Shown here one piece after another: positions 1 through 30,370 of a stretch of DNA of 52,322 nt. The stretch's first letter is position 1. Every line of letters begins with the position of its first letter. Under the pieces are notes generated by a model that worked only from the letters and a program-made list of their open reading frames with translations, had not been told where the DNA came from and did no database searches. The translations under genes were made by a program, and so were the position numbers. The DNA lies in IMG/VR virus record IMGVR_UViG_3300027736_000067, positions 1 through 52,322 of that record, one strand, 5' to 3'. Origin of the DNA: a virus.

Positions 1-283
1 GGGTGATTAATTCTGAAGTAGATAAACCTTTATCAATTGCTTTTTTATAATTTTCGGCTTCTCTTTTTAAAATCCTTTCAGGATAAAATCTACCGTTTCT
101 ATTTGGAGTATCGTATTTCTGAAGAACCGCATAAAATTCAAATGGATTTTTATAATCCAAGTTTGCAGCTTCTTTTAAAATATCTGAATTAAGTCTATCT
201 TTTGGAGATACGTGACCCGCATCCATTTCAATTAGTATACCATGACCAACTTCGCTAGCCTCTAAAATTCTCAAATTTTTCAT
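1..283 (-). CDS. Prohead core protease, gp21-like (N-terminal part, cut by window edge)
   Basis: About 94 N-terminal residues are present and the rest lies beyond the left edge. The stretch around residues 55-75 reads DTPNRNGRFYPERIL, which matches the VNRNKRLYPKRIL region of T4 gp21, the serine protease that matures the prohead by cutting scaffold and internal proteins after (L/I)-x-E. The protein itself begins MKNLRILEAS, with an ILE|A site near its own N-terminus; T4 gp21 also cleaves itself. It is the first of the minus-strand head genes beside the portal and terminase. The catalytic residues are outside the window, so activity is inferred from the family match. This gene is the key to reading the LxE signals on many other proteins here. 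Confidence 0.8.
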   Translation of the reverse strand, partial: MKNLRILEASEVGHGILIEMDAGHVSPKDRLNSDILKEAANLDYKNPFEFYAVLQKYDTPNRNGRFYPERILKREAENYKKAIDKGLSTSELIT

Positions 284-319
284 CTAATCTTTTATGATAA
301 ATATACGGTATTGATAAGT

Positions 320-760
320 TTATTCTTTTTCGTCTTTTTTAGAAATTGAAAATTCAAAATGTTTGTTTTCTATAATGTTGTTTTTAAAAATGTTTCGTAC
401 GATTTGTTTTACTGAATCTTTAATTTCCTTTGATTTGAAATCTATTTCAGATATTGTAAAAAGATTTACCTCTAAATTAAAAAAGGATTTTTTTCCGTGA
501 GATATTCCACTTGTTCTTAAATCTAAATCAACAATACTATTTTCTTGGAAAATTTTTTGATTGATTGAATTAAATACGGAATGTTTAATTTCTCTGTTTA
601 AATTACCTACAATACGATTCCAATTTTCAGTCTCATATTTTGGTGTAATCCAAGATTGGATGTTAATATAGACGGATTTTAGGTTTTTGGAATCAACTGT
701 TCCATAGACTGATTTAATAGGATTGTATAAATTCAACTTTACACTTTTGCCTTTTTTCAT
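320..760 (-). CDS. Hypothetical protein, 146 aa
   Basis: Not recognised. It is a lysine-rich protein with alternating hydrophobic and polar residues and no signal peptide or membrane segment. It starts MKKGKSVKLNLYNPIKS and ends in a charged KKDEKE tail. It sits between the prohead protease and the bS21/portal block on the same strand as the head genes, so a head-assembly role is possible but unproven. No late motif stands directly before it. Confidence 0.6.
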   Translation of the reverse strand: MKKGKSVKLNLYNPIKSVYGTVDSKNLKSVYINIQSWITPKYETENWNRIVGNLNREIKHSVFNSINQKIFQENSIVDLDLRTSGISHGKKSFFNLEVNLFTISEIDFKSKEIKDSVKQIVRNIFKNNIIENKHFEFSISKKDEKE

Positions 761-843
761 TAATTTTCATTGTTATTATGTTTATTTTCATTAAAAAAAT
801 AACACATATAAATGTTAATGTCAAAAATTTTTTAAGTTTTCAA

Positions 844-851
844 GATATTTG
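844..851 (+). promoter_or_regulatory. Host-type -7 box for bS21
   Basis: GATATTTG has one mismatch to the Bacteroidota -7 element TAnnTTTG. Only 6 nt separate it from the ATG at 858, so transcription should start at or next to the start codon. Confidence 0.45.
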
Positions 852-857
852 TAAGAT

Positions 858-1043
858 ATGCTAATAATAGAAATCAAAAACGGAGAGAATATTGAAAGAG
901 CTCTCAAAACACTTAAGTCAAAAGTGATTAAAACAAAACAGAATCAAAAACTTTCAGGTAGAAAACAATACATTAAACCTTCTGTTGTAAACAGAAATAA
1001 AGTTTTAAAGGCAATTTATATTCAGAAAAAAAGAATATCTTAA
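858..1043 (+). CDS. rpsU: Small ribosomal subunit protein bS21, phage-encoded
   Basis: The 61-residue protein has the full bS21 pattern: MLIIEIKNGENIERALKTLK at the N-terminus, a basic middle, then IKPSVVNRNKVLKAIYIQKK. Host Bacteroidota bS21 has the same MLII-x-(V/I)-K-x-GENI-x-RALK start and the IKPSV-x-(N/R)R-x-x-x-x-KA-x-YIQ end. bS21 sits on the 30S platform. In the Flavobacterium johnsoniae ribosome it helps cover the anti-Shine-Dalgarno sequence, so a phage copy could alter which mRNAs are initiated. It is the only plus-strand gene among the left-end head genes, has a host-type -7 box 6 nt before its ATG, and overlaps the end of the convergent gene by 4 nt. Phage bS21 homologues are known in other large phages. 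Confidence 0.93.
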   Translation: MLIIEIKNGENIERALKTLKSKVIKTKQNQKLSGRKQYIKPSVVNRNKVLKAIYIQKKRIS

Positions 1044-1738
1044 ATTGACCCTTCTAAGTTTTTAAGTTTTAAGAAATTAACCTGGTCAAACTTTTCAGTC
1101 TTAAGTCTATCAATTGTTTCAGAAATTTTTGTTTTTAACTCAAACTCTTCTTCGTTATCTAAAATAGATTTTAATTTAGTAATAGTACTTTCTTTTAAAG
1201 TTTCAAATTTTGTCTCAAGAGATTTAGAATCTTCAGAAATTAATTTAAAAAATTCTTTTTTAGTGTTTTCATCTAAAGTTTCAATATAAGTTCTTAAAGT
1301 TTGATTTGCAATATTAACCATTGATTTGATTGGTATATTGATTGATTCTTTAATTGTTTTTGAATTAGATGTTAAAATAGAAATTATATTTCTTTTTGAT
1401 TGTATCCTCTCATGAAGATTTAATTTGTTAGTATAAACTAACGTATCAATATCAGAATATTTGTTTTCGGCTGATTCCTCCAAAGCCTTTGGAAGTTTAA
1501 TAGATGGTAAAATTTTACCTAAAAGATTTACACCTTCTTCTAAAAATTCTTTAGCGTCGGATTCAGATAATCCCTGAGGAGTACTTAATTGGTCATACAA
1601 AGAATAAGCCTTTGAAATTGGCTTATCATTCAAAACATTGTGTTTGAATTCTCTCAAAGATTTCTTGAATTCTTTTTCGTTCTGATACGACTCAAGAAGA
1701 TTTTTTTCAATTATGGATTTTATTTTACCGAAGGTCAT
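1040..1738 (-). CDS. Probable head core or scaffold protein, 232 aa
   Basis: An almost wholly helical, charged protein (KESINIPIKSM, LDENTKKEF, KLKSILDNEEEF) with no cysteine. It starts MTFGKIKSIIEKNLLESYQN, where LLE|S fits the prohead protease site (L/I)-x-E|(A/G/S). It lies directly downstream of the portal in the head operon, where T4 carries its small prohead core genes. The link to a T4 core protein rests on position, helical character and the cleavage motif, not on sequence identity. A late-type motif lies 12 nt before the ATG. Confidence 0.6.
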   Translation of the reverse strand: MTFGKIKSIIEKNLLESYQNEKEFKKSLREFKHNVLNDKPISKAYSLYDQLSTPQGLSESDAKEFLEEGVNLLGKILPSIKLPKALEESAENKYSDIDTLVYTNKLNLHERIQSKRNIISILTSNSKTIKESINIPIKSMVNIANQTLRTYIETLDENTKKEFFKLISEDSKSLETKFETLKESTITKLKSILDNEEEFELKTKISETIDRLKTEKFDQVNFLKLKNLEGSI

Positions 1739-1750: not shown

Positions 1751-1760
1751 TAATAAATAT
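1751..1760 (-). promoter_or_regulatory. Late-type motif before the 1738 gene
   Basis: The coding strand reads ATATTTATTA, 12 nt before the start codon. It is a weaker relative of GTATTTATA. Confidence 0.4.
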
Positions 1761-3613
1761 TAGGAATTTAGTAACTTATCCAATTCTTTTGAAATTTCTC
1801 CTAAAGATTCTTGTCCATGACCTAAATCTATGAATGTTGCTCCGTCAATTAAGTTGTTTTCAATCAACATATTTAAGCTATTTAATTTTGACTCAGGTAT
1901 TGGTGGTTCTCCTTCAGTTGGTGGTGGAGGAGCTTCTCCCCCTAATTCCTCTCCTCCTGGCGGTGGCGGAGGTGTTCCTAAATCTCCACCTGGAGGTGGT
2001 CCTAATTCCTCGGCACCACCTGGAGTTGTTGAAGCTCCCGCTGATGGTGTTGAGCCCGAAGGACTTCCGTAAAGTTTGTCAATATTATCAAAAATACCTG
2101 TCTTAGTAATAACAGTTGCTGTTGCTTTAAGTTCTTCTCCAACAGCTCTTTCAATTCTTTGTTGTTGTAGGTCAAGTCTAATTTCTTCGTCTGACCAACC
2201 AAAGATATGTTTCTTAGCCCAAGTAGAAGATGTTGCTTGAATACCATTTCCTGGGTCGGCAACCAAGTCTTTATATAATAATATTTTTTCTTTCCAAATA
2301 TCTACTTTAAGTAAATCTGCTTGTGTAGATGGGTTAGTTAATCCTAATGTAAAGTTTTGTAATTCGTCCTCAAACCCTAATAAGAATAAATGCACAATTG
2401 CAATCTTATTAAGCTCTTGAATCATACTTTTTTGAATTCTATTAATTGTACGAGCAAATCTAATATCTTGTAATGCTAGGTTTTTTCCGTCACCAACAAC
2501 TTCTTCAAATCCTAAAAATGCTTTAGGAACACGAAGAGCAGTTAATAATTTCTTTTGAATATATTCAATATCCGCAATTTCTGATAAATTTGTTGCTCCT
2601 GGCAATGTATCAATTGGGCTTGGTGCCGCTGGGTCTCTAACAGGTACAAAATAATCTTGGTCAACCGCCATTTGGTTGAATCTCATATCCACATTACCTG
2701 TCTTACTATCAACAATTTGTTCTCTTTTGAATTTGTTAGCAACACGTTGTACATATGCTTCAACATCATCATCATTCATATTTCCAACAAATACTTTAAA
2801 GATTCTTCTTTCAGGAGCTCTTGAAGTTCTATAGATTAACATAGCATCTTCACACAATAAAAGTTGTTTCCAAGTTCTTCTTGCTTTTTCTAACATAGAA
2901 GTACCATAAGGAAGTTTTCTATCATCACCCAATAATCTAAAGTGAGCCATTTCCCATGATTGGAATTCCATATTTTTGTTCTTCCAAGTGAAATGTAATG
3001 CCTTTTTGTCCTTATCTAATTCTTTTGTAATATCAACAGAAATTTTTTGACTAACACCAACTTCATGTCTTTCAATTTCAATTGTTGGTAATTGTTGAAC
3101 ACCAACAACTCCTTTCTCAGGGTCTAATTTCAAATACACAAAGTTATCACCATACTTACAAGTGTTTCTTGTCCACATTGGTAAGTTAGTGTTAATATCC
3201 AATGAGTTGTTAAATAAATCGGCTAATACACCCTTAATTCTTTTTGATTCAGAATAAATTTGTAATATAAATCCATCTTCATTTGTTGTTGTAGATTCTT
3301 CAGCATAAATGTCCAAAGCTGCAGAAATCTCAGGAGTATACTCCATTGATTCATAATCATACTGAGAAGATAATCTTGTTGGCTCATAATAAATTGCTTG
3401 AGAATATAAATTATTCTCAACCTTAGCCCATTGATTTGCTAAATAAAAAGTTTGTTGTGCTTGAAGTTTTTCGGTTTCGTATTCCTGTTTGTTTGTTGTA
3501 CGCAACAATTCCTGTTTATCAAACTTAAATGTTGGATAATCTTGTCCTAAAAGTGAATTAGGTCCAAATGTTTGCGACAATCGTTGCCAAACCGTCATGT
3601 TCTGTTCTGCCAT
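1760..3613 (-). CDS. Portal protein, T4 gp20-like
   Basis: The 617-residue protein forms the dodecameric ring at the DNA-packaging vertex. The diagnostic gp20 core is present near residues 225-285: LPYGTSMLEKARRTWKQL, then YRTSRAPERRIFKVFVGNM. It is followed by RVPKAFLGFEE and KNLALQDIRFARTINRIQ around residues 365-395. An N-terminal stretch, SLLGQDYPTFKF, matches gp20-type portals. Unusually, residues about 515-575 are a Pro/Gly-rich tail (PPPGGDLGTPPPPPGGEELG), then a short helical end. Neighbours are the terminase upstream (37 nt gap) and a scaffold-like gene downstream. A TATTTATA motif lies 26 nt before the ATG. Confidence 0.95.
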   Translation of the reverse strand: MAEQNMTVWQRLSQTFGPNSLLGQDYPTFKFDKQELLRTTNKQEYETEKLQAQQTFYLANQWAKVENNLYSQAIYYEPTRLSSQYDYESMEYTPEISAALDIYAEESTTTNEDGFILQIYSESKRIKGVLADLFNNSLDINTNLPMWTRNTCKYGDNFVYLKLDPEKGVVGVQQLPTIEIERHEVGVSQKISVDITKELDKDKKALHFTWKNKNMEFQSWEMAHFRLLGDDRKLPYGTSMLEKARRTWKQLLLCEDAMLIYRTSRAPERRIFKVFVGNMNDDDVEAYVQRVANKFKREQIVDSKTGNVDMRFNQMAVDQDYFVPVRDPAAPSPIDTLPGATNLSEIADIEYIQKKLLTALRVPKAFLGFEEVVGDGKNLALQDIRFARTINRIQKSMIQELNKIAIVHLFLLGFEDELQNFTLGLTNPSTQADLLKVDIWKEKILLYKDLVADPGNGIQATSSTWAKKHIFGWSDEEIRLDLQQQRIERAVGEELKATATVITKTGIFDNIDKLYGSPSGSTPSAGASTTPGGAEELGPPPGGDLGTPPPPPGGEELGGEAPPPPTEGEPPIPESKLNSLNMLIENNLIDGATFIDLGHGQESLGEISKELDKLLNS

Positions 3614-3639: not shown

Positions 3640-3647
3640 AATATAAA
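3640..3647 (-). promoter_or_regulatory. Late-type motif before portal gene
   Basis: The coding strand reads TATTTATA, 26 nt before the portal start, in the short gap after the terminase gene. Confidence 0.5.
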
Positions 3648-3650
3648 TAG

Positions 3651-5411
3651 TTATTTGGAACCAAATAACCATCCATATTTTTGATAATCGGCTTTAGTGG
3701 CTGATTGGTTACTATAAGGGTTTTGTCTTCCCATTTGAGGAATCATTGGATTAAAGTAATCTGAAGTGTTTTTATTCTCGTTAACGACAGATGTCCAAGA
3801 ATTTAACATTGCCTTTGTATGATTAACAACTTTTTGTAAGGATTGAAATGATTTTTCTGCAACATATATTGCCATAGAAATACCCATAATACAGTCATCA
3901 TGATGACCTTTTTGATGGTCTGGTCTACCATTCACATAAATAAATGTGTTCATTTCGTTATATAATCTATGAGAATATATTTTGAAATCGTGTCTACACG
4001 CTTCTTCCAATGATGCAATAATTTGAACTCTTTTATTGTTGAAATTAATACCAGGTATTTTTTCATTCATTTTTGGGTCCCATTTCCACTTATTATTTGG
4101 GTCAACATTATCAACGTACATCCCTCCTTGATAACCCATTTCTTGCATTTTTCTTGCTGTAGCGACCCCCATTCCACCTGTTAAATCCACAACACAATAT
4201 GCGGTATACATACTTCCCCACTTATAAGCAATCTCAGCAGTAATGTCTGGTGGAACTTTTCCAACATATTCAAGTACTTGTTCTCTTGTATCAAAATCAA
4301 TTATTTGAATGCTACTAAAATCTTCCGAGTCACCTCTTGATACGTCCACACCCATAACATATTTATGACCATTTTCTGGTTCTTTAAAAATCCAAAGTGA
4401 GCCACCCATCATTTTAGCTAAAGGTTCTCTTAATTGATTTTTGGAAATGTTCTGCATTAATTCAGAGTCAAAAACGTTATCACCTGAACCCAAGAAATTG
4501 CATTCTAATTCCTGAGCCACTTTTCTCCTATCAAACTTTAACTTTTTAACCATTCCTTCAAACCAAGACGAACATGGTTTATACCCCTGACTTATATAAT
4601 CAGTTGTTATTTCATGGTCTCGTTCATATGGATTATCAATTGATAACTCCACAACAACATCTTTGGCATAATCTTCTCTATTTAACAAAAAATGAACTAA
4701 ATCATTTGTTTTAACCATATACAAATCTTTTGTATATCTTGGGTCACGATACCAGTACATTTCAGAAATTTTGAAGTCATTCATATTTCTTAATGCTTGG
4801 TCATAAATTTCATAATAAATTGCGTCGTATCCGTTTGGAGTAGAAACAACGATAACCTTACCACCCGTAGATAGTGAGGCCATACACGCTGACCAGAAAT
4901 CTCCGTCAGCTTCAATGAACGCAGCCTCATCAAAAATAAGAATAGTTGGGGTATAACCTCTCAACGCATCCTTTGATGTTGCAACCGCTTTAACTTCACA
5001 GTCATTAGTAAGTTTAAAATGTCTTTGTGCGTTTTTATCAGGTGAAAATCCAACACCTACCCAAGATGGCCATTGTTCTGTAAAATTTCTAATTTTGTTA
5101 GCCATCTCAACGGATGTATCTAACTTATTGGCAATGATTAGAATTTTTTCAGGTTTCTGTTTTTTGGCAAATACCAATTTTTTGGATGCCCATGCAGCGG
5201 TTACTGTTGTTACACCAGCCTGACGATACTTTAATGCAATGTTTTCATTGTGGGCATCGTAATCTTCAATAAGACTAACTTGGTCAGGAAAAAGGTCTAA
5301 GGGAACATACTTTGATACTGTGTTATCGTATGTCTGTAAATAAGTACGAAGTGCGTAAGGAGTATTCCTCATACACTTCGTAACTTCTATAATTAATTGT
5401 TCTTTAGTCAC
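3651..5411 (-). CDS. Terminase large subunit, T4 gp17-like
   Basis: The DNA-packaging ATPase and nuclease, 586 aa, a usual length for gp17. The ATPase domain has the Walker A region KYRQAGVTT near residue 61, then the Walker B motif TILIFDEAAF near 156 and the coupling segment VVSTPNGYD. The RNase H-like nuclease domain begins at YVMGVDVSRGDSEDFSSIQ (first catalytic Asp) and ends with KGHHDDCIMGISMA (further acidic residues). The gene lies 3 nt below the upstream acidic gene and 37 nt above the portal gene, so packaging motor and portal are adjacent. No small terminase subunit is recognised; one of the acidic upstream genes is a candidate by position only. Confidence 0.97.
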   Translation of the reverse strand: MTKEQLIIEVTKCMRNTPYALRTYLQTYDNTVSKYVPLDLFPDQVSLIEDYDAHNENIALKYRQAGVTTVTAAWASKKLVFAKKQKPEKILIIANKLDTSVEMANKIRNFTEQWPSWVGVGFSPDKNAQRHFKLTNDCEVKAVATSKDALRGYTPTILIFDEAAFIEADGDFWSACMASLSTGGKVIVVSTPNGYDAIYYEIYDQALRNMNDFKISEMYWYRDPRYTKDLYMVKTNDLVHFLLNREDYAKDVVVELSIDNPYERDHEITTDYISQGYKPCSSWFEGMVKKLKFDRRKVAQELECNFLGSGDNVFDSELMQNISKNQLREPLAKMMGGSLWIFKEPENGHKYVMGVDVSRGDSEDFSSIQIIDFDTREQVLEYVGKVPPDITAEIAYKWGSMYTAYCVVDLTGGMGVATARKMQEMGYQGGMYVDNVDPNNKWKWDPKMNEKIPGINFNNKRVQIIASLEEACRHDFKIYSHRLYNEMNTFIYVNGRPDHQKGHHDDCIMGISMAIYVAEKSFQSLQKVVNHTKAMLNSWTSVVNENKNTSDYFNPMIPQMGRQNPYSNQSATKADYQKYGWLFGSK

Positions 5412-11899: not shown

Positions 11900-13912
11900 A
11901 TGCACGATATCATGGACGACGACGACAAAATGAGTAAAAAACAAAAACAGTCTTCTGACAGCAATACTCCTGTCTTGGACAACTTCAGTAGAGATTTAAA
12001 TAAACTTGCCGCTGAAGGTAAATTAGACCCTGTCATCGGACGTGACAGAGAGATTTTAAGAATCGCTCAAATTCTATCTCGTAGAAAAAAGAATAACCCA
12101 ATTATTATTGGTGAACCTGGTTGTGGTAAGACTGCAATTGTAGATGGTTTGGCAATGAAAATTGTAAGCGGGGAATGTCCTCGTAATTTAGTTGATAAAA
12201 GAATCGTAAACCTTGATTTGACTTCAGTGGTTGCTGGTACAAAATACCGTGGTCAGTTTGAAGAAAGAATGAAGGTGATTATTGAAGAACTTCATGCTAA
12301 TCCAAACATCATTGTATTCATTGATGAGATTCATACCTTGGTGGGTTCTGGTAACTCAGCTGGTTCAATGGATGGTTCTAATATCTTTAAACCCGCATTA
12401 TCTCGCGGTGAACTTCAATGTATTGGTGCTACCACATTGGATGAATTCAGAAAAAATATTGAAAAGGATGGAGCTCTTGAGCGTAGATTCCAAAAGGTTA
12501 TGGTTGAACCATCTTCTGTGGTGGAGACAATTCAAATCCTAAAGAACATTCGTGAGAAATATGAAAGCTTCCATAAAGTTGTCTATTCAGACGAGGTTAT
12601 TGAATCTTGTGTAAAATTAGCTGACCGTTATATTACAGATAGAGAATTCCCTGATAAGGCGTTTGATATTATGGATGAGGTTGGAGCTCGTATGCAAACT
12701 GAACTAAAGGTACCCGAAGCAATTGAAGAATTGAAGAAGAAAGCTGCAGAAATTCGTGAACAAAAAGTTGATGTTGTTAAGAAACAAAACTACGAACAAG
12801 CTGCTCAGTTAAGAGATAAGGAAAAAAAGTTATTAGACAAACTTGAAATAGAAAAAAGAAAGTTTGAAGACGAACTTCAAAAAGACAAACAAATCATTTC
12901 TCTTGAGGATGTTTATGATGTGGTTTCCAATATGACTAAAATCCCTGTTAATAAAATGAGTGTTGATGATGCAAAAGCATTAATCAACTTGGATAAAGAA
13001 TTAATCGGTAAGGTTATTGGTCAAGATGCTGCGGTTGTTAAAATTGCGAAAGCAATCAAAAGAAACAGATTGGGTATTAAAGACCCGAACCGTCCAATTG
13101 GTTCATTTGTATTTCTTGGTTCAACAGGTGTTGGTAAGACTCACTTGGCCAAACAATTAGCAAAAGAAATGTTTGGCTCTGAAGATTCACTTATCCGTGT
13201 GGATATGTCTGAATACCAAGAGAAACATACTGTATTTAAATTGGTGGGAGCTCCTCCAGGTTATGTTGGATATGAAGAAGGTGGTCAGTTGACTGAAAAG
13301 GTTAAGAATAAACCATATTCTGTTATTTTATTTGATGAGGTTGAAAAGGCTCACAAAGACGTATTCACTGTGTTACTTCAAATCTTAGATGATGGTCACG
13401 TAACAGATAGTTTAGGTCGTAAGATTAACTTCAAGAATACCTTAATCATCTTAACATCAAACTTAGGTGTTAAAAAATTACAAGACTTCGGTACAGGTAT
13501 TGGTTTTTCCTCTAACTCTTACAGTAATGATGAGGCTAAGAAACAAGTATTAATGAAAGAGATGAAAAATTTCTTCTCTCCTGAGTTCTTGAACCGTATT
13601 GATGATACAATTGTATTCAATTCTTTAACTCCTGAAGACATCAAGAAAATAACTGATATTGAATTGAAGAAATTAGTAACTCGTTTGAAAGATATGAAAT
13701 ACGGAATTTCTTATGATGAGACTTTGGTTGAATACTTAGCTAAAATTGGATTTGATGAGTTATACGGAGCTCGACCTTTGAAAAGAGCAATACAAGACAA
13801 AGTTGAGGATTTGTTGTCTGAAGAAGTTTTAACAGGTAAGATGATTGAAGGTAAATCCTACAACATCAAGGTTGAAAATGAGGAGATTAAAATTGTGAAG
13901 AAAGGTAAATAA
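11900..13912 (+). CDS. clpC: ClpC-type AAA+ unfoldase lacking the N-domain, 670 aa
   Basis: Two AAA+ rings are present. D1 has Walker A GEPGCGKTAIVDGLA at 71-85 and Walker B FIDEIHTLVG. D2 has Walker A GSTGVGKTHLAKQLA near 407 and Walker B VILFDEVEKAH. The middle contains a UVR-like coiled segment, NYEQAAQLRDKEKKLLDKL, which marks ClpC rather than ClpA. Near residue 533, FGTGIGFSSN supplies the (I/L/V)GF loop that docks onto ClpP. The usual N-terminal Clp-N repeats (about 150 aa) are absent: the protein starts with an acidic MHDIMDDDDK and a short linker. That domain normally binds adaptors, so substrate choice should differ from host ClpC. A phage ClpP is encoded at 36974 and a tmRNA at 17336. 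Confidence 0.93.
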   Translation: MHDIMDDDDKMSKKQKQSSDSNTPVLDNFSRDLNKLAAEGKLDPVIGRDREILRIAQILSRRKKNNPIIIGEPGCGKTAIVDGLAMKIVSGECPRNLVDKRIVNLDLTSVVAGTKYRGQFEERMKVIIEELHANPNIIVFIDEIHTLVGSGNSAGSMDGSNIFKPALSRGELQCIGATTLDEFRKNIEKDGALERRFQKVMVEPSSVVETIQILKNIREKYESFHKVVYSDEVIESCVKLADRYITDREFPDKAFDIMDEVGARMQTELKVPEAIEELKKKAAEIREQKVDVVKKQNYEQAAQLRDKEKKLLDKLEIEKRKFEDELQKDKQIISLEDVYDVVSNMTKIPVNKMSVDDAKALINLDKELIGKVIGQDAAVVKIAKAIKRNRLGIKDPNRPIGSFVFLGSTGVGKTHLAKQLAKEMFGSEDSLIRVDMSEYQEKHTVFKLVGAPPGYVGYEEGGQLTEKVKNKPYSVILFDEVEKAHKDVFTVLLQILDDGHVTDSLGRKINFKNTLIILTSNLGVKKLQDFGTGIGFSSNSYSNDEAKKQVLMKEMKNFFSPEFLNRIDDTIVFNSLTPEDIKKITDIELKKLVTRLKDMKYGISYDETLVEYLAKIGFDELYGARPLKRAIQDKVEDLLSEEVLTGKMIEGKSYNIKVENEEIKIVKKGK

Positions 13913-13953: not shown

Positions 13954-14595
13954 GTGAGAGACTTAATAAGAAAAATTTTAACTGAAGAACAAACTCAATC
14001 TAATCTAGACAGAGTCATAGACTCTTTAGGTAACGGAATTGATTCTGAGTTACTTAATAGAATAAAACATTACATTAAGTCATACATTCAAGATAGGGGG
14101 TACACCGTAAAATTTTTAAATTCCTGTTCAACAGGGTTTTCAGGTGTTAGAACTAAAAAACAAGTGATAATTTGTTCACCAATGACTATGAGTTCTATTG
14201 GTGATTTCATTTACACAATTTTCCACGAATTAAGGCATGAAGACCAAATGACAACACTTCAAATGGAAAATCCATTAACCGATATGGATTTAGAAGATTT
14301 TGAAGAACTTTCAGAACAATACTGGAACATGGAAATGGATGCTGACACATCAGCAAAAAAAGAAGTGGCGAAAATGATATTAGATTTAGGTATCCCAATT
14401 AAAGAAGCGAAACAAAATTTCAGATTAGCTCAACATATTGAAAATTACCAATATTCAAGTAATTTAGTAAAAGCCTACATCCAACGTTTAGTAATGGATA
14501 TTATCCGCATGAAAAAGGATGGTGTTGAATTTACTGACATCCAAGACCATCCTTTTGTTAAAAGACATTTAGATAAACTAGAAGAGTTTATTTAA
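13954..14595 (+). CDS. Zincin-like metallopeptidase with prohead-type N-terminus, 213 aa
   Basis: The start is GTG, fixed by the motif 3 nt upstream and the terminator behind it. The first residues, MRDLIRKILTEEQ, end in an LTE|E site like those cut by T4-type prohead proteases. The segment IYTIFHELRHEDQM near residues 85-98 has the HExxH zinc-protease motif, and MEMDADTSAKKE about 35 residues later offers a third ligand. The rest is helical. It may be a virion-internal peptidase delivered with the DNA. The overall fold is unconfirmed and no family is named. Confidence 0.7.
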   Translation: MRDLIRKILTEEQTQSNLDRVIDSLGNGIDSELLNRIKHYIKSYIQDRGYTVKFLNSCSTGFSGVRTKKQVIICSPMTMSSIGDFIYTIFHELRHEDQMTTLQMENPLTDMDLEDFEELSEQYWNMEMDADTSAKKEVAKMILDLGIPIKEAKQNFRLAQHIENYQYSSNLVKAYIQRLVMDIIRMKKDGVEFTDIQDHPFVKRHLDKLEEFI

Positions 14596-15434
14596 AAAAT
14601 AAATCTACTCTGTTGGTTATAAATTTTAGCCTCTTTATAGTGTAATTTATACCCTAATTTTTCAATCATTTTTTTACCCATACTGATTCCGTTGAAAACA
14701 TCTTCAACAACGACATATTCATTTTTTGTATGATAGTTGTAATATCCGATTGAGAAATTAATACAAGAAAAATCAAACTTACCTCTTAATGAATAAACGT
14801 CAGTATACGGATGAACCATATATTGCATACGTTCATTGTCCATACCTTCTGTTAAGATTTCATCAACAGTACTGAAGAATTCAGAATCTCTATCAAATAA
14901 TATTTGACCAAAACATTTTTCAGTAATCATCCAGTTTTCAGGGGCGTCAAATTGAATTGCATAACCGACATTTTGGAAAAATTCTTCGTTAGCTTTTTTG
15001 GACCCGTGACAACCAGTTTCTTCCGATACGAAAAATGCCGCTTTCAAATATGGTAATTCTTTCAATAAAGTTAAACATCCAAAAACACCACATTTGTCAT
15101 CACCACCAATACCTGTCGCGTGACCGAAGTCATTATATGCTTTATAGGATAACTTTGTTTCTCCTTGAGCATTTGGAAGGTATTCTTCCGCAATATTGAT
15201 TGTATCAATTTCGTGAACAGTATCTGTATGTGAAATCACACACGGGAAATAAAAGTCAGGAGCAATTAATGGTGATTCCTGCTTGGTGGCATAAACGTTC
15301 TTGAATTCATCAACATAGAATTCAATATTGTTTTCAGTCAACCAATTTTTTAGGAATTCAACCATAAGGTCTTCCTGATACGTTTTAGTTGGAACACTTA
15401 GAACGTCTTTAAGTAATTGTAGATTTTGTGTCAT
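14592..15434 (-). CDS. M20-family-like zinc peptidase, 280 aa
   Basis: The start is placed at MTQNLQLLKDVLSVPTKTYQ because a TATCTTTG box stands 5 nt before this ATG. Metal-binding signatures of M20/PepT-type peptidases are in order: SHTDTVH (H69, D71), GIGGDDKCGV (D112), SEETGCHGS (E138-E139), and YYNYHTKNEYVVVEDV near the C-terminus for the last ligand. The usual dimerisation domain appears short, since the family is normally 350-400 aa. It could process peptides from degraded host or tagged proteins. It overlaps the convergent zincin gene by 4 nt. Confidence 0.8.
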   Translation of the reverse strand: MTQNLQLLKDVLSVPTKTYQEDLMVEFLKNWLTENNIEFYVDEFKNVYATKQESPLIAPDFYFPCVISHTDTVHEIDTINIAEEYLPNAQGETKLSYKAYNDFGHATGIGGDDKCGVFGCLTLLKELPYLKAAFFVSEETGCHGSKKANEEFFQNVGYAIQFDAPENWMITEKCFGQILFDRDSEFFSTVDEILTEGMDNERMQYMVHPYTDVYSLRGKFDFSCINFSIGYYNYHTKNEYVVVEDVFNGISMGKKMIEKLGYKLHYKEAKIYNQQSRFIF

Positions 15435-20998: not shown

Positions 20999-21613
20999 AT
21001 GAAAGTCATATTTTTAGATAATGATGGAGTAATCTGTTTATCAAATAATTGGGGGGGTCGTACAAAAAAATGGGCGAAATATCGCTCCGCAAATCCTGAG
21101 TCAAGTAATTTACTCAGCGAAGCGCCAGTTGATGTAAGATTTGATGATTTTGATAAGAAATCTATTAAAATTTTAAATGAAATTTTAGAAGAAACAGGAG
21201 CAGAGATTGTAGTATCTTCTGATTGGAGATTTCATGCAACTTTAGAAGAATTAGGTGGGTATTATTTATCCCAAGGAATCTCAAAAAAACCAATCGGATT
21301 TACCAAAAAGTTAGGTCAATTTCAAGAACCTAAAAACTTCCCATGGTCTCGTCAGTGGAATTTAGAACAGTCAAGGTCCTTAGAGATACTTCAATACCTT
21401 AAAGACCATCCAGAGGTCACAGAATGGGTTGCAGTAGATGATTTGAATATGGGAATACCACAGACTCACGAGAGTTGGGGTGAAATGGAAATGGATTGGG
21501 GTTTGACCAATTTTGTACTCACACCAAAAAGTAGTGAAGGGATTAAACAAACAGGATTAAAAGATAAAATCATAAAACTATTAAATGATGACAATACTAC
21601 ATCAGGTATTTAA
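20999..21613 (+). CDS. HAD-superfamily hydrolase-like protein, 204 aa
   Basis: Motif I is FLDNDGV (D7, D9), motif II is VVSSDWR near residue 75, and the acidic motif IV is WVAVDDLNMG near 140-149. This order is that of HAD phosphatases, close to the HAD domain seen with RNA-repair enzymes. The Lys of motif III is not obvious. It is expressed from a host-type promoter and overlaps the next small gene. Possible roles include end-healing of cleaved RNA, which would suit a phage with many tRNAs, but that is inference. Confidence 0.8.
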   Translation: MKVIFLDNDGVICLSNNWGGRTKKWAKYRSANPESSNLLSEAPVDVRFDDFDKKSIKILNEILEETGAEIVVSSDWRFHATLEELGGYYLSQGISKKPIGFTKKLGQFQEPKNFPWSRQWNLEQSRSLEILQYLKDHPEVTEWVAVDDLNMGIPQTHESWGEMEMDWGLTNFVLTPKSSEGIKQTGLKDKIIKLLNDDNTTSGI

Positions 21614-25012: not shown

Positions 25013-25058
25013 TATAAAAACTTATCTAATTAGTCAATTTATAGGTTAAATTATTTTG

Positions 25059-25146
25059 CGGAGAGTGCTGGATTTGAACCAGCGGTACCCTTTAGGAGTA
25101 CGACAGTTTAGCAAACTATTGGATTAAACCTCTCTCCCAACTCTCC
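25059..25146 (-). tRNA. tRNA-Ser(GCT)
   Basis: Acceptor GGAGAGT/ACTCTCC, T arm GCTGG-TTCAAAT-CCAGC, anticodon loop TTGCTAA, long class II variable arm, discriminator G. CCA is not encoded. Confidence 0.92.
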
Positions 25147-25150
25147 ATTG

Positions 25151-25224
25151 TTGGAGTAGGTGGACTCGAACCACCGACATTCACCGTATCAGGATGACGC
25201 TCTAACCAACTGAGCTATACTCCA
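25151..25224 (-). tRNA. tRNA-Ile(GAT)
   Basis: Acceptor TGGAGTA/TACTCCA, anticodon loop CTGATAC, T arm GGTGG-TTCGAGT-CCACC, discriminator A. Confidence 0.92.
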
Positions 25225-25232
25225 ATAAAATA

Positions 25233-25349
25233 AGGTAGAAGCACCCAAAAGGGGTTTGGCCTCGGGTTACATCACGTATAGGAGCCCTGTGCTCCAACCC
25301 CGATATTGTGCGACGGCCGCATCAGTTTCTACTGAATCCTTCTCTACCT
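25233..25349 (-). ncRNA. Structured spacer RNA A in the tRNA array
   Basis: 117 nt closed by AGGTAGA/TCTACCT. On the minus strand it holds hairpins TCAGT-AGAA-ACTGA, GCG-GCCGT-CGC, GGAGC-ACAGG-GCTCC and ACCC-CTTTT-GGGT, and a longer pairing of TCGGG with CCCGA. It lies between tRNA-His and tRNA-Ile, has no ORF and is not a tRNA. It resembles in kind the stable non-tRNA RNAs of the T4 tRNA cluster. Confidence 0.55.
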
Positions 25350-25354
25350 CATTG

Positions 25355-25425
25355 TGTGACTAGAGAGAATCGAACTCTCACATGAAGCGCCACAAGCTTC
25401 CGCCCTACCATTAGGCTATAGCCAC
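25355..25425 (-). tRNA. tRNA-His(GTG)
   Basis: Acceptor GTGGCTA/TAGTCAC, anticodon loop TTGTGGC, T arm GAGAG-TTCGATT-CTCTC. The base before position 1 is G, as expected for His, but the discriminator is A rather than the bacterial C. Confidence 0.9.
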
Positions 25426-25431
25426 CATGTG

Positions 25432-25503
25432 TTGCGGTGAGAAGAATTGAACTTCTGACGACTTGGATATGAATCAAGTGTTCTACCACTGAACTACACC
25501 GCA
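25432..25503 (-). tRNA. tRNA with CAT anticodon (Met, or Ile-CAU if modified)
   Basis: Acceptor TGCGGTG/CACCGCA, anticodon loop TTCATAT, T arm AGAAG-TTCAATT-CTTCT, discriminator A. The top pair of the anticodon stem is mismatched. A second CAT tRNA at 25663 looks like elongator Met, so this one could be a lysidine-type Ile tRNA or an initiator variant. Confidence 0.85.
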
Positions 25504-25509
25504 ATTTTG

Positions 25510-25581
25510 AGGTCCCATAGGGATTCGAACCCCAACTCTTTTCGTCCGTAGCGAAATGTTTTTCCATTAAACTATGGAACC
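25510..25581 (-). tRNA. tRNA-Arg(ACG)
   Basis: Acceptor GGTTCCA/TGGGACC, anticodon loop CTACGGA, T arm TGGGG-TTCGAAT-CCCTA. The discriminator reads T, unusual for Arg. Confidence 0.88.
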
Positions 25582-25585
25582 GAAG

Positions 25586-25656
25586 TTATCCCCTAAGGAT
25601 TCGAACCTTAAATAATTGGACCAAAACCAATTGTGTTACCGTTACACCAGAGGATA
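25586..25656 (-). tRNA. tRNA-Gln(TTG)
   Basis: Acceptor TATCCTC/GGGGATA, anticodon stem ATTGG/CCAAT with loop TTTTGGT, T arm TAAGG-TTCGAAT-CCTTA, discriminator A. Confidence 0.9.
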
Positions 25657-25662
25657 AAATTG

Positions 25663-25736
25663 TGGACCCTCACGGGCTCGAACCGTGGACCTAATGATTA
25701 TGAGTCATTTGCTCTAACCGACTGAGCTAAGGGTCC
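25663..25736 (-). tRNA. tRNA-Met(CAT), elongator-like
   Basis: Acceptor GGACCCT/AGGGTCC, anticodon loop CTCATAA, T arm CACGG-TTCGAGC-CCGTG, discriminator A. The overall sequence is close to bacterial elongator Met tRNAs. Confidence 0.92.
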
Positions 25737-25738
25737 CA

Positions 25739-25843
25739 AAAACCTACCATATGAATGTTTTATCCCCTTACGGGCCACGGCCATTAAGTGCGTCACTTTC
25801 ATTCATCGGCCATCACACGGTTTCACCGCCTGAGGTAAGTTTT
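25739..25843 (-). ncRNA. Structured spacer RNA B in the tRNA array
   Basis: 105 nt closed by a 10-bp stem AAAACTTACC/GGTAGGTTTT (one T.G pair). Inside are hairpins CGGT-GAA-ACCG, AAGTG-ACG-CACTT and CCC-GTAA-GGG, and a long pairing ATGAATG/CATTCAT. It fills the gap between tRNA-Tyr and tRNA-Met almost exactly and has no ORF. Confidence 0.6.
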
Positions 25844-25844
25844 G

Positions 25845-25926
25845 TGGGAGTAGCTGGACTCGAACCAACGAACTCAAAAGAGGGGACATTTACAGTGTCC
25901 TGCCATTGCCACTAGGCAATACTCCC
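25845..25926 (-). tRNA. tRNA-Tyr(GTA)
   Basis: Acceptor GGGAGTA/TACTCCC, anticodon stem GGACA/TGTCC with loop CTGTAAA, class II variable arm CCTC-TTTT-GAG, discriminator A. Confidence 0.92.
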
Positions 25927-25931
25927 AAAAA

Positions 25932-26070
25932 ACAGGAAAGGAGAAGATGGTCGAGTGGACAACTCCTTTTATGATTGGCATTACTAACGTTGGTTTCAAC
26001 TCCGATACAGTCGGCCAATGCTTTTTGAGCTCCACCAACAGGCTAACCTGTATCATTCCCCAATCAACCT
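25932..26070 (-). ncRNA. Structured spacer RNA C in the tRNA array
   Basis: About 139 nt between tRNA-Trp and tRNA-Tyr. Minus-strand hairpins include ACAGG-TTAG-CCTGT, CCGA-CTGTA-TCGG, and a longer pairing ATTGGC/GCCAAT. AGGAG near the 3' side can pair with CTCCT. No clear terminal stem was found and the only open frame runs on into tRNA-Tyr, so an RNA role is the better guess. Confidence 0.4.
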
Positions 26071-26073
26071 CTG

Positions 26074-26146
26074 CACGCATGTCAGGACTCGAACCTGAAA
26101 CTCCTAGTTTTGGAGACTAGTGCTCTACCAATTGAGCTACACACGC
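26074..26146 (-). tRNA. tRNA-Trp(CCA)
   Basis: Anticodon stem CTAGT/ACTAG with loop CTCCAAA, T arm TCAGG-TTCGAGT-CCTGA, discriminator G as usual for Trp. The acceptor GCGTGTG/CATGCGT has three G.T pairs. Confidence 0.88.
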
Positions 26147-26147
26147 A

Positions 26148-26267
26148 TTATTTTTTTATAATTCCAGCCTTAACAAGAAACTTACGAGCAGATTTCTTAT
26201 TCTTACAGGCTTTCTTCGTCACCTTTTTAATTGCCTTGACCATTTGGTCTATTTGTTTTTTTCTCAT
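26148..26267 (-). CDS. Small basic protein inside the tRNA array, 39 aa
   Basis: The reading is MRKKQIDQMVKAIKKVTKKA, then CKNKKSARKFLVKAGIIKK. The start codon lies 1 nt after the tRNA-Cys 3' end. Sixteen of 39 residues are Lys or Arg, and it ends with a KFLVKAGI phrase that looks like other small phage proteins. RNA binding is possible from charge alone. Confidence 0.5.
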   Translation of the reverse strand: MRKKQIDQMVKAIKKVTKKACKNKKSARKFLVKAGIIKK

Positions 26268-26268
26268 G

Positions 26269-26340
26269 AGGTCAGTACAGGATTCGAACCTGTGTAAATA
26301 GTTTTGCAGACTATCGCCTAAGCCACTCGGCCAACTGACC
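26269..26340 (-). tRNA. tRNA-Cys(GCA)
   Basis: Acceptor GGTCAGT/ACTGACC, anticodon stem ATAGT/ACTAT with loop CTGCAAA, discriminator T as expected for Cys. Confidence 0.93.
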
Positions 26341-26345
26341 TTATT

Positions 26346-26678
26346 TTAATGGGTTCCATTTGTTAATGAAATCCCATGTCTTATTCCTGTGATAAAATCT
26401 TCAATCTCACCCTCAGTCATATTTTTATATTTAAGTCCAACTGTATGACCAATTTCATTACCACAATCACTTAAATCACCTTCATAATCCATTGAGCGAC
26501 TATATTCTAATAAACTGAATGCAATCCAAGACAAGTCATCACTATTAAATGTTCTTTCCATATTTTTAATGGATTCTACCAGTTGTTTTCCAAACCATTC
26601 TTTCCATTCCTCAAAGGTAAACTTTGAATCAGGATTATCTAAAAGAAAGTTTTTATATTGTGTTTCTAATGTTGCCAT
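26346..26678 (-). CDS. Hypothetical protein in tRNA array, 110 aa
   Basis: Not recognised. It begins MATLETQYKNFLLDNPDSKF, followed by TFEEWKEWFGKQL. It is acidic and helical, with Cys and His in DCGNEIGHTVGLKYKNM. It fills the gap between tRNA-Cys and the next small gene. Confidence 0.6.
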   Translation of the reverse strand: MATLETQYKNFLLDNPDSKFTFEEWKEWFGKQLVESIKNMERTFNSDDLSWIAFSLLEYSRSMDYEGDLSDCGNEIGHTVGLKYKNMTEGEIEDFITGIRHGISLTNGTH

Positions 26679-26703
26679 AATTTTAATTATTTATTATATT
26701 TTT

Positions 26704-26937
26704 CTAATGAACCATGTCAAAACTGATGTTATTGTTTGACATTAGTTCACGGAGTTCTTCCCTTATTTCTTGATAAGCATCATACTTATCTTTTGGTAAA
26801 TCATCAGACGCGTATTTTGTCTTAGACCTCAAAGACTGGTCCAATTCCCATAGTACACTCCAAAATTTGAGACCACTATTTGCCAAATCAAAATCTTGTT
26901 GGTCATCAGGTAAGTTAAATTCAAGTATTGCTTTCAT
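26704..26937 (-). CDS. Conserved-type small phage protein, 77 aa
   Basis: The start is placed at MKAILEFNLPDDQQDFDLAN, which is the common beginning of a small protein seen in many tailed phages. The body contains FWSVLWELDQSLRSKTKYA and an acidic helical end. Function unknown. It starts just after tRNA-Lys. Confidence 0.65.
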   Translation of the reverse strand: MKAILEFNLPDDQQDFDLANSGLKFWSVLWELDQSLRSKTKYASDDLPKDKYDAYQEIREELRELMSNNNISFDMVH

Positions 26938-26952
26938 AATATACATTTTTTG

Positions 26953-27025
26953 TGACCCCGCCGAGACTCGAACTCGGGACTCCTAAATTAAAAGTTTAGT
27001 GCTCTACCAACTGAGCTACAAGGTC
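26953..27025 (-). tRNA. tRNA-Lys(TTT)
   Basis: Acceptor GACCTTG/CGGGGTC, anticodon stem CTAAA/TTTAG with loop CTTTTAA, discriminator A. Confidence 0.92.
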
Positions 27026-27030
27026 TGTTG

Positions 27031-27103
27031 TGGTAACGGTCAGAATCGAACTGACGACACCTTGCTCTTCAGGCAAGTGCTCTACCAACTGAGCTACGTC
27101 ACC
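27031..27103 (-). tRNA. tRNA-Phe(GAA)
   Basis: Acceptor GGTGACG/CGTTACC, anticodon stem CTTGC/GCAAG with loop CTGAAGA, discriminator A. Confidence 0.93.
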
Positions 27104-27104
27104 A

Positions 27105-27320
27105 TTAATTCACTTCAATATCTTCCAAAGGTACATCTTCTCCTTGAGTATGCCTATAAACTGTGTTAAAAAACTCTCCTAACAATCTATAATCCTCAGG
27201 AATCATATGACAAAAATCAAATGCAGGAATTGCATCATGAATCTTACCTTGAACCACTTTATCTCTTTTTTCATCTGGTTTGTACTCAAACACAATATGA
27301 CCTCTAAAAATATATTTCAT
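27105..27320 (-). CDS. Hypothetical protein in tRNA array, 71 aa
   Basis: Not recognised. It begins MKYIFRGHIVFEYKPDEKRD and has an acidic C-terminus. It is tightly placed, 1 nt from tRNA-Phe. Three direct repeats stand immediately upstream (27321-27381). Confidence 0.55.
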   Translation of the reverse strand: MKYIFRGHIVFEYKPDEKRDKVVQGKIHDAIPAFDFCHMIPEDYRLLGEFFNTVYRHTQGEDVPLEDIEVN

Positions 27321-27381
27321 AACTTCCGATTTTGTCTTGTTTTTACTTCCGACTTTGGACGGGTTTTACTTCCGACTTTGT
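27321..27381 (-). repeat. Three direct repeats, core CAAAGTCGGAAGT
   Basis: On the minus strand the core recurs at 27381-27367, 27357-27344 and (one change, CAAAATCGGAAGT) 27336-27321, about 23 nt apart. They lie between tRNA-Val and the 27105-27320 gene, with the last copy touching the start codon. Regular spacing suggests a protein- or RNA-binding site array. Confidence 0.6.
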
Positions 27382-27390
27382 CATTTTTTG

Positions 27391-27463
27391 TAGTCCCTGT
27401 AGGAATCGAACCTACGACACCTTGGATGTAAACCAAGTGCTCTTCCAACTGAGCTAAAGGACT
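27391..27463 (-). tRNA. tRNA-Val(TAC)
   Basis: Acceptor AGTCCTT/AGGGACT, anticodon stem CTTGG/CCAAG with loop TTTACAT, discriminator A. Confidence 0.92.
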
Positions 27464-27467
27464 ATAA

Positions 27468-27555
27468 ATGATGACACCATTGACTCTCTCAATGCGTTTA
27501 CGGCAGGGATTAGTAACCTTATCCTTTCGGAATTCGTCCTCTCTTATGCCATCAT
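27468..27555 (-). ncRNA. Structured spacer RNA D in the tRNA array
   Basis: 88 nt closed by a 9-bp stem ATGATGGCA/TGTCATCAT. Inside are hairpins TCC-GAAA-GGA and CATTGA-GAGAG-TCAATG. It lies between tRNA-Glu and tRNA-Val and carries no ORF. Confidence 0.6.
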
Positions 27556-27559
27556 CTTG

Positions 27560-27631
27560 TACTCGGTACGGGAATCGAACCCGTCTTTTCAGGATGAAAA
27601 CCTGATGACCTAACCGATAGTCGAACCGAGC
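27560..27631 (-). tRNA. tRNA-Glu(TTC)
   Basis: Acceptor GCTCGGT/ACCGAGT, anticodon stem TCAGG/CCTGA with loop TTTTCAT, discriminator A. Confidence 0.92.
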
Positions 27632-27671
27632 ATTTAGCAAATTTACAACCAATATTTCAAAGAACCAAAAA

Positions 27672-27708
27672 TAAAAAAACCCCGAACTTCATTTCTGTCG
27701 TTCAGGGT
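27672..27708 (-). terminator. Rho-independent terminator inside the tRNA array
   Basis: On the minus strand ACCCTGAAC, a 12-nt loop, GTTCGGGGT, then seven T's. It follows the 28-aa micro-ORF and splits the array into two transcription blocks. Confidence 0.85.
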
Positions 27709-27745
27709 CTGTATATATAACTCTCTTCAGGAATTACCAAATCAT

Positions 27746-27832
27746 TTACACGTCTGAACTACAAGGCATAATCTCATACCAACAAATTTCTTGTTGTTTA
27801 CTAAAGACTATATGACGCATTGTAGTGTTCAT
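27746..27832 (-). CDS. Micro-ORF with late-type motif and terminator, 28 aa
   Basis: The reading is MNTTMRHIVFSKQQEICWYE, then IMPCSSDV. TATTTATA ends 5 nt before the ATG and a strong terminator follows, so it has the layout of a complete small gene. The same DNA can fold (ACTACAA/TTGTAGT stem with a CAACAA/TTGTTG hairpin), so a small RNA remains possible. Confidence 0.45.
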   Translation of the reverse strand: MNTTMRHIVFSKQQEICWYEIMPCSSDV

Positions 27833-27837
27833 GTTAT

Positions 27838-27845
27838 TATAAATA
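27838..27845 (-). promoter_or_regulatory. Late-type motif before micro-ORF
   Basis: TATTTATA on the minus strand, 5 nt before the ATG at 27832. Confidence 0.5.
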
Positions 27846-27872
27846 TATACCTTTTTATTAAAGTATCAAGTG

Positions 27873-27953
27873 TACCCCAAGTCGGACTCGAACCGACACG
27901 ACTTACGTCACAAGTTCCTAAGACTTGAGTGTCTACCATTTCACCATCGGGGC
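27873..27953 (-). tRNA. tRNA-Leu(TAG)
   Basis: Class II. Acceptor GCCCCGA/TTGGGGT, anticodon stem CAAGT/ACTTG with loop CTTAGGA, long variable arm, discriminator A. It reads CUA/CUG leucine codons and is not a stop suppressor. Confidence 0.92.
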
Positions 27954-27955
27954 AT

Positions 27956-28049
27956 AATCACATCAGACAGGCATTCTACTTCCAGCGCCGAGAAATTGTA
28001 TCTTATTTAACCCATCTCACCGCTGTATGGGTACCTGAAGATATGACCT
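27956..28049 (-). ncRNA. Structured spacer RNA F in the tRNA array
   Basis: Between tRNA-Arg and tRNA-Leu. It has a hairpin ACCCAT/ATGGGT inside a TATCTT/AAGATA pairing. A possible outer stem AATCACA/TGTGATT overlaps the end of tRNA-Arg, so it could form only as an alternative fold. Confidence 0.35.
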
Positions 28050-28051
28050 TG

Positions 28052-28125
28052 TGATTCGGAAAGGATTCGAACCTTTGACCCCAAACTTAGAAGGTTTGTG
28101 CTCTATCCAGCTGAGCTACCGAACC
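28052..28125 (-). tRNA. tRNA-Arg(TCT)
   Basis: Acceptor GGTTCGG/CCGAATC, anticodon stem CAAAC/GTTTG with loop CTTCTAA, discriminator A. Confidence 0.92.
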
Positions 28126-28153
28126 AATATATTACAAAGATAATAAAAAAAAG

Positions 28154-28897
28154 TTACTCTGCAAAACTTTCTTCGTAGATGGTATCGTGAGCGTTTTCCT
28201 CTACATTATAGGTGTGATTTAATTCAATCGTCATTTCATGGAAGTTAAATATAAATTCGCCATCTGAACCTTCATTAATTTCCCACCCACCAAAGTTATT
28301 TTCAAGTTGTCTATAACACCAATCCTCTATTGAAGTAGGTACTCCATCACCGTTTTCTTCAAAACTACTTTCAATATATCCTGAGTCACCTGAACCATTA
28401 TATTTTACAGTTAATATGCCGTCATTTGGAACCTCAAGGTCATCAAGAACTCCATCTTTTTCCCATTCCTCAAAAATATCTTTTCCTTCTTCACTATCCC
28501 ATTCAACACTATTACCATCACCTCTTTGATAAAATGTCCACCAATGATTTACTGATATTTCTGATTTTTCACAATCAATATCAAAATCAATTCTTTCGTA
28601 ATTTAAATCTTCTTCATCAGGTACTTGGAATATTCCATTTTCTTGAATATAATCTCCTATTTTTTTCAATATTGGTACTAAACCATCAGGTACTTCGGCA
28701 CTATAATTGTTTGAAAAATGACTACCCTCATGTTCCCAATCTATGTCATTAAAATCAAAATCGGCGCTATTGTCAATATCCATCTCAATACTTCCGTCTT
28801 GCATTCCAAGTGATGCGAGGTATCTACAAACTCTTCTAAGGTATTGTTTATCCTCAGGGGTTAATATATTAAATGAATTCACTTTTTTTCTTTTCAT
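28154..28897 (-). CDS. Acidic uncharacterised protein, 247 aa
   Basis: Very acidic, with tandem beta-like segments (DIDCEKSEISVNHWWTFYQR, LTVKYNGSGDSGYIESSF). The C-terminal DWCYRQLENNFGGWEINEG, then DGEFIFNFHEMTIELNHTYN, resembles short DUF6878-type sequences; that is a loose match. A late-type motif, ATATTTATT, ends 3 nt before the ATG. It may be a nucleic-acid mimic or structural protein; no evidence decides. Confidence 0.6.
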   Translation of the reverse strand: MKRKKVNSFNILTPEDKQYLRRVCRYLASLGMQDGSIEMDIDNSADFDFNDIDWEHEGSHFSNNYSAEVPDGLVPILKKIGDYIQENGIFQVPDEEDLNYERIDFDIDCEKSEISVNHWWTFYQRGDGNSVEWDSEEGKDIFEEWEKDGVLDDLEVPNDGILTVKYNGSGDSGYIESSFEENGDGVPTSIEDWCYRQLENNFGGWEINEGSDGEFIFNFHEMTIELNHTYNVEENAHDTIYEESFAE

Positions 28898-28900
28898 AAT

Positions 28901-28910
28901 AATAAATATT
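28901..28910 (-). promoter_or_regulatory. Late-type motif before 28897 gene
   Basis: AATATTTATT on the coding strand, 3 nt before the ATG. Confidence 0.4.
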
Positions 28911-29256
28911 AGTCTTCAAGTTTAAGTGTTCTGGTCATCCATTGAGGTCTTTGGTTGGTTGATATGTTATTAACCCATTCTTTAGCTGACGGAATATAGT
29001 TGTTACAATCTTCTTTAACATGTTGTTCTCCAACATATCTGGTGTAAACTATTTTACCATCACTATTAAGGAATTCAGTACCAAAACGTTTTTCCATCTC
29101 AAAAATACCTTCACTATGATGTCTAAACATTCTGTGTAAAGAATCTCCAAACCATCCTTTGGTCTCATCTAACCATTCATGTAAATGGATGTAATCTTCT
29201 GGTTTTCCACCAAATTTTTTGGCGGATGATTTTGCATGTACATTAGGGTGTGCCAT
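28909..29256 (-). CDS. DUF6915-like protein, 115 aa
   Basis: The start is taken at MAHPNVHAKSSAKKFGGKPE, the usual beginning of this family. The conserved phrases are all present: YIHLHEWLDETKGWFGD, RHHSEGIFEMEKRFGTEF, then TRYVGEQHVKEDCNNYIPS. Function is unknown; conserved His and Glu residues suggest metal binding. It overlaps the upstream sulfotransferase-like gene by 14 nt. Confidence 0.75.
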   Translation of the reverse strand: MAHPNVHAKSSAKKFGGKPEDYIHLHEWLDETKGWFGDSLHRMFRHHSEGIFEMEKRFGTEFLNSDGKIVYTRYVGEQHVKEDCNNYIPSAKEWVNNISTNQRPQWMTRTLKLED

Positions 29257-30075: not shown

Positions 30076-30089
30076 AAATATAAATTTTG

Positions 30090-30162: not shown

Positions 30163-30166
30163 AATT

Positions 30167-30205: not shown

Positions 30206-30214
30206 CACCCCTTG

Positions 30215-30288: not shown

Positions 30289-30294
30289 TTATTG

Positions 30295-30366: not shown

Positions 30367-30370
30367 GAGA

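Follow-up and report, generated by a model that had tools for sequence, protein, structure and literature searches.

The window analysed here, a 52,322-base stretch of DNA that is the whole of an IMG/VR record filed under virus, encodes a real, constrained ribosomal protein bS21 of Bacteroidota type, which probably belongs to a fragment of a giant phage whose hosts we infer to be Bacteroidota. Host rpsU is the one gene with a strong Shine–Dalgarno sequence, and that sequence is absent from the phage copy, a point that the first-pass annotation of this DNA had missed. Homology, a retained contact residue, a phage-specific block, sequence constraint, the lack of a Shine–Dalgarno sequence, the position of a promoter-like box and synteny are the observations from which we infer late transcription of the window copy, a leaderless mRNA, incorporation into 30S subunits and an effect on host rpsU. 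The whole explanation, in which a functional phage bS21 is expressed late and nearly leaderless, enters 30S subunits and escapes the host feedback, is one that we favour with modest confidence. The genes concerned are as follows.

2–283, minus strand: prohead protease, N-terminal part, cut by the contig end (phrog_207, 1.8e-4; homologues of ~240 aa in related loci)
320–760, minus strand: divergent conserved neighbour, 146 aa, function unassigned (present in related loci; alpha/beta model, pLDDT 90)
858–1043, plus strand: phage bS21, 61 aa, ATG to TAA (PF01165, 2.7e-11; 7jil chain E, 1.7e-12; pN/pS well below 1)
1040–1738, minus strand: convergent conserved neighbour, 232 aa, helical, its stop codon overlapping that of bS21 (present in related loci; poor model)
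1760–3613, minus strand: T4-type portal protein (PF07230, 9.8e-79)
3651–5411, minus strand: terminase large subunit, TerL (PF03237, 2.6e-13; phrog_2, 3.8e-38)

The claim that the open reading frame is a clear Bacteroidota-type bS21 is borne out by three matches: Pfam Ribosomal_S21 (PF01165; 43.4 bits against a cut-off of 27, E 2.7e-11, positions 2–52 of 55), NCBIfam S21p (TIGR00030; 32.2 against a cut-off of 28.95) and solved structures, of which the best relatives are Bacteroidota-type bS21 chains. The top one, from the Flavobacterium johnsoniae ribosome (7jil), aligns without gaps to phage residues 1–58 (E 1.7e-12). The 62 phage bS21 proteins form one clade with a support of 0.999 and none of the 60 host proteins inside it, and their median dN/dS is 0.17 in a set without the subgroup that has lost one residue near position 9. 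More generally, published accounts name bS21 as the ribosomal protein gene most often found in phages (PMC9723584, PMC9976891).

The residues through which bS21 meets 16S rRNA, which the first-pass annotation had proposed to compare with host bS21, are retained. Atomic contacts were taken from papers later than the 7JIL structure paper, not from the 7JIL coordinates. Tyr54, which stacks on A1534 of the 16S tail (PMC9976891), is present in the window protein, and position 54 is Y in 43, H in 6 and F in 1 of the 50 phage proteins from loci fetched by the neighbour gene. K17, K20, K22, T26, K40, S42, R46 and A52 are among the residues invariant in phage and host sets together, and the invariance of K40, S42, R46 and A52 was found again with the neighbour-fetched phage set and hosts. 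The window protein thus fits the premise that Flavobacterium bS21 helps to hide the anti-Shine–Dalgarno. Residues 16–30 (LKTLKSKVIKTKQ) are near-fixed across the phages and unlike the hosts at most positions: over residues 18–30 the phage version reads T L K S K V I K T K Q N Q, with few exceptions, against R F/Y K R K F D K T G ... in hosts. They are also the most constrained part of phage bS21, with a pN/pS, in the same set as the dN/dS, of 0.07 against 0.32–0.35 elsewhere. Because fetching loci by bS21 peptides could itself create such conservation, we re-examined it on loci retrieved with the neighbour gene or with TerL instead, where it persisted. Host-divergent residues at several of these positions have been mapped above the anti-Shine–Dalgarno by Chen et al. 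(PMC9723584).

The sharpest contrast with the hosts lies upstream of the start codon. The last 25 nt before the ATG were paired with the 16S tail AUCACCUCCUUUCU, which we take to be that of F. johnsoniae. Among 70 distinct host rpsU genes, 62 leaders pair below −13 kcal/mol, with a median of −19.3 kcal/mol; phage bS21 leaders have a median of −1.1 kcal/mol (n = 55 distinct), and 0 of the 99 distinct leaders of the phage clade fall below −13 kcal/mol. The window leader, at −1.1 kcal/mol, has no extended Shine–Dalgarno sequence as defined by that threshold, and other 16S tails leave the host–phage contrast unchanged. The test statistics for host against phage leaders ignore shared ancestry and the phage side may comprise few events; indeed, as the phage bS21 clade is monophyletic, the absence may be a single one. 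More distantly, a 735-kb phage has a Shine–Dalgarno sequence before its bS21 (−12.1 kcal/mol), and in four other distant phage sequences it is weak or absent. Shine–Dalgarno sequences had been called rare in this phage, and no enrichment is seen in the window: pairing below −8 kcal/mol occurs for 3 of 73 genes, compared with 6% of random 25-mers. In the host, the strong Shine–Dalgarno sequence of rpsU is the basis of bS21 autoregulation (PMC9976891).

In place of the host leader, the phage gene has a promoter-like box almost at its start codon. The relevant elements in the window are as follows.

297–303, minus strand: TATTTAT, candidate late promoter box of the protease gene (33/34 distinct orthologous leaders)
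794–801, minus strand: TATTTTTT, possible −7 box of the divergent gene (TTG-N20-TAnnTTT; from the sequence)
820–826, minus strand: GTCAAAA, that is, TTTTGAC on the minus strand, a −33-like element of the divergent gene, not of bS21 (45/45 leaders)
844–853, plus strand: conserved promoter-like box GATATTTGTA of bS21, fitting TATTTnTA and ending 4 nt before the ATG (55 distinct leaders)
1753–1759, minus strand: TATTTAT box of the convergent gene (33/33 leaders)
3643–3649, minus strand: TATTTAT box of the portal gene (24/26 leaders)

Across the clade, the conserved box GATATTTnTA ends ~4 nt 5′ of the ATG and its TTTG 6 nt 5′; the form GATATTTG, which is related to the host −7 box, ends 6 nt before the ATG, a spacing that is near-fixed across most of the clade. 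In host rpsU, TAnnTTTG −7 boxes lie 17–60 nt before the ATG, most often 29, so the host leader with its Shine–Dalgarno sequence is missing in the phages. TATTTnTA describes the bS21 box in 33 of 55 leaders, a number that rises to 44 when one additional base is permitted. Reading it as a host sigma-A −7 box is less likely, since the final G is present in 30 of 55 leaders only and a −33 TTG is missing (found in 1 of 51). GTCAAAAATTTT was considered as a −33 element for bS21 and ruled out: it stands at a variable distance from the bS21 box (about 7–31 nt by eye) but at a near-fixed one from the divergent gene, mostly 56–61 nt, and it persists without bS21. The TTTTGAC element is mostly 56–61 nt before the divergent ATG and is kept in phages without bS21.

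The simplest reading of the bS21 box is a phage late promoter. It resembles the TATTTAT of the protease, portal and convergent genes, a candidate late promoter, and this reading agrees with the published transcription of bS21 alongside structural genes in such phages (Chen et al. 2022, PMC9723584). Of the 47 window genes with free upstream DNA, 8 are preceded by TATTTATA in the sense orientation, where 200 shuffles gave a mean of 0.67 and at most 4; for TAnnTTTG the count is 7, against a shuffled mean of 1.17 and a maximum of 5. One protein with sigma-70 region 2 is found in each of four relatives of 317–321 kb. Placing the transcription start from the box, we predict a near-leaderless bS21 mRNA. 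The near-zero leader proposed at first pass thus gains support from a box spacing that holds clade-wide; it is not special to bS21, because promoter-like boxes also lie 4–6 nt before the ATG at several other window genes, which makes near-zero leaders a habit of the phage. Separately, a perfect host-type TAnnTTTG stands 4–6 nt before the ATG at 14592–15434 (minus strand) and at 18222, 20999, 40573 and 45945 (plus strand). These genes form a second near-leaderless class, some with a TTG ~18–20 nt further upstream, and are perhaps early genes; the one at 20999–21613 (plus strand) encodes a HAD_SAK_2 domain protein (Swiss Army Knife RNA repair).

That bS21 adjoins the head genes, as had been claimed, holds: portal, terminase and prohead protease lie close by on the opposite strand. 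Eighty IMG/VR loci fetched by bS21 peptides have the identical gene order wherever their length permits, and bS21 is present in 74 of 80 loci fetched by the divergent gene and in 53 of 80 fetched by TerL; the bS21-less ones that were checked mostly end before the bS21 site. In four loci (L274, L351, L368 and L369) both neighbours are present and bS21 is missing; the gap of ~137 nt between them contains the TTTTTGAC element that belongs to the divergent gene, together with a hairpin resembling a terminator. TerL phylogeny places two distinct sequences without bS21 (L351 and L368) together within the bS21-bearing clade, which points to loss of bS21 in one nested phage lineage, where the gene is therefore not essential. 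Chen et al. described bS21_CN, a neighbour that co-varies with bS21 and that their two outgroups lack (PMC9723584); as both neighbours are kept without bS21 in one lineage, strict dependence on bS21 is unsupported, whichever neighbour bS21_CN is. The fold of the divergent neighbour (320–760) had no match below E 0.001 in a search of the PDB, and its one clear match is an uncharacterised myovirus protein (A0A8S5L9A5); structure prediction gave no good model for the convergent one (1040–1738).

Several other features of these loci were seen. The portal reading frame of L067 (8901–11834) is 977 aa against the usual ~617, a possible insertion, and the ATG-start TerL frame of L048, L050–L052 and L070 is ~483 aa against 573, which may be a matter of the start codon only. 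In the window, positions 25058–30759 (minus strand) hold 22 tRNA genes for 19 of 20 amino acids, with none found for Ala, which is close to a complete set on a phage fragment. Positions 11900–13912 (plus strand) encode a Clp/ClpB-type double AAA ATPase; it is of interest for the speculation that a phage protease acts on host bS21 (PMC9976891).

The explanation that we favour draws on the feedback loop worked out in F. johnsoniae, whose ribosomes initiate faster on rpsU when they lack bS21 or its C-terminus, and whose bS21-replete ribosomes initiate better than bS21-lacking ones on mRNAs without a Shine–Dalgarno sequence (PMC9976891). Phage bS21 would be made late, from a phage-type promoter with its box immediately before the start codon, leaving little or no mRNA leader, and would replace host bS21 in host 30S subunits late in infection. 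There, its conserved C-terminal half would keep the 16S tail with the anti-Shine–Dalgarno tucked away, and the bS21-filled ribosomes would stay fit for phage mRNAs, which lack Shine–Dalgarno sequences, so that the phage would gain from complete ribosomes. Lacking the extended Shine–Dalgarno sequence, the phage bS21 gene could itself run on replete ribosomes, outside the host feedback, while its product, in filling ribosomes, should hold down translation of host rpsU and may jam the feedback. From this benefit and this immunity together, phage bS21 would not only evade the host feedback but also drive it down; the F. johnsoniae study stresses the reverse, that host feedback aids recovery (PMC9976891). 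A further-reaching version, offered tentatively, is that the feedback is captured: a loop-immune phage bS21, made from a near-leaderless late mRNA without a Shine–Dalgarno sequence, would keep ribosomes replete and host rpsU off, and ribosomes would drift to the altered 16–30 version. Through the leader contrast, what had been a general idea about phage bS21 becomes directly testable in F. johnsoniae, namely that the protein shuts off host rpsU while its own gene is immune to the loop.

A stronger claim, compatible with this explanation, is that the 16–30 block alters how 30S subunits select or hold mRNA and so creates a preference for phage messages. Exchange into host 30S subunits with a bias towards phage mRNAs is the hypothesis of Chen et al. 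2022 (PMC9723584) and was also the first-pass view. The near-fixed, host-unlike block, with the strongest constraint in the protein (0.07 against 0.32–0.35), and the placement of divergent residues in this region, above the anti-Shine–Dalgarno (PMC9723584), speak for such specialised ribosomes. However, we found no phage-specific mRNA signal, host genes lack Shine–Dalgarno sequences just as phage genes do, and the block could equally act in binding strength or in evading a host factor, which leaves this possible but doubtful. Rather improbable, in our judgement, is that phage bS21 merely completes ribosomes as host bS21 synthesis fades, without any re-programming: the conserved C-terminal contact residues and the better performance of replete ribosomes on Shine–Dalgarno-less mRNAs (PMC9976891) would suit it, but mere imitation of the host would not predict a strongly constrained phage-specific block.

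A role outside translation, for example in virion packaging, which was raised by Chen et al. (PMC9723584), or in binding a neighbour's product, could account for the fixed place among the head genes; conservation of the ribosome-contact residues and the persistence of both neighbours in bS21-less phages make it very unlikely. The box, finally, might be an A/T-rich translation start context, with the transcript beginning further upstream. The entire intergenic region is A/T rich, and F. johnsoniae uses Kozak-like start contexts, according to a published study (PMC6847099). We nevertheless think this unlikely, as the position and letters of the box are conserved across clades, the plus strand further upstream is only antisense to the divergent gene, and the TATTTATA motif marks other genes far above shuffles.

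Chen et al. (2022, PMC9723584) had already reported the bS21 gene, its position and its proposed role in jumbo myophages of freshwater Bacteroidetes. As in clades a–e of that study, bS21 lies on the opposite strand between two hypothetical genes, near TerL, portal and protease, and the protein keeps Tyr54 and diverges from hosts in its N-terminal half. The genomes there are 293–331 kb, whereas the window is a 52-kb fragment, with same-locus relatives of 317–321 kb; members of those clades have TerL >~70% similar, and the window TerL, compared with IMG/VR only, is 84–100% identical to relatives that include a 321-kb contig with the same synteny. The missing Shine–Dalgarno sequence relative to host rpsU, the box at the ATG and the nested loss with both neighbours kept look new. 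The main text of Chen et al. contains no occurrence of promoter, leaderless or autoregul- (PMC9723584), and no earlier report of the three was found in the part of the literature covered, so priority is uncertain.

Compared with the host rpsU of Flavobacteriales (PMC9976891), the phage gene encodes a homologous protein with the same C-terminal contact residue; unlike it, the phage gene has neither the extended Shine–Dalgarno sequence nor the ~29-nt spacing of the −7 box, and residues 16–30 differ. Pelagibacter phage HTVC008M (PMC6375957) also has a bS21, but with another host group and a distant sequence; the bS21 of the pelagiphage Mosig is 40% identical to the window protein over 47 residues. 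The HTVC008M protein was incorporated into Escherichia coli 70S ribosomes and is the only phage bS21 shown to enter ribosomes (PMC6375957).
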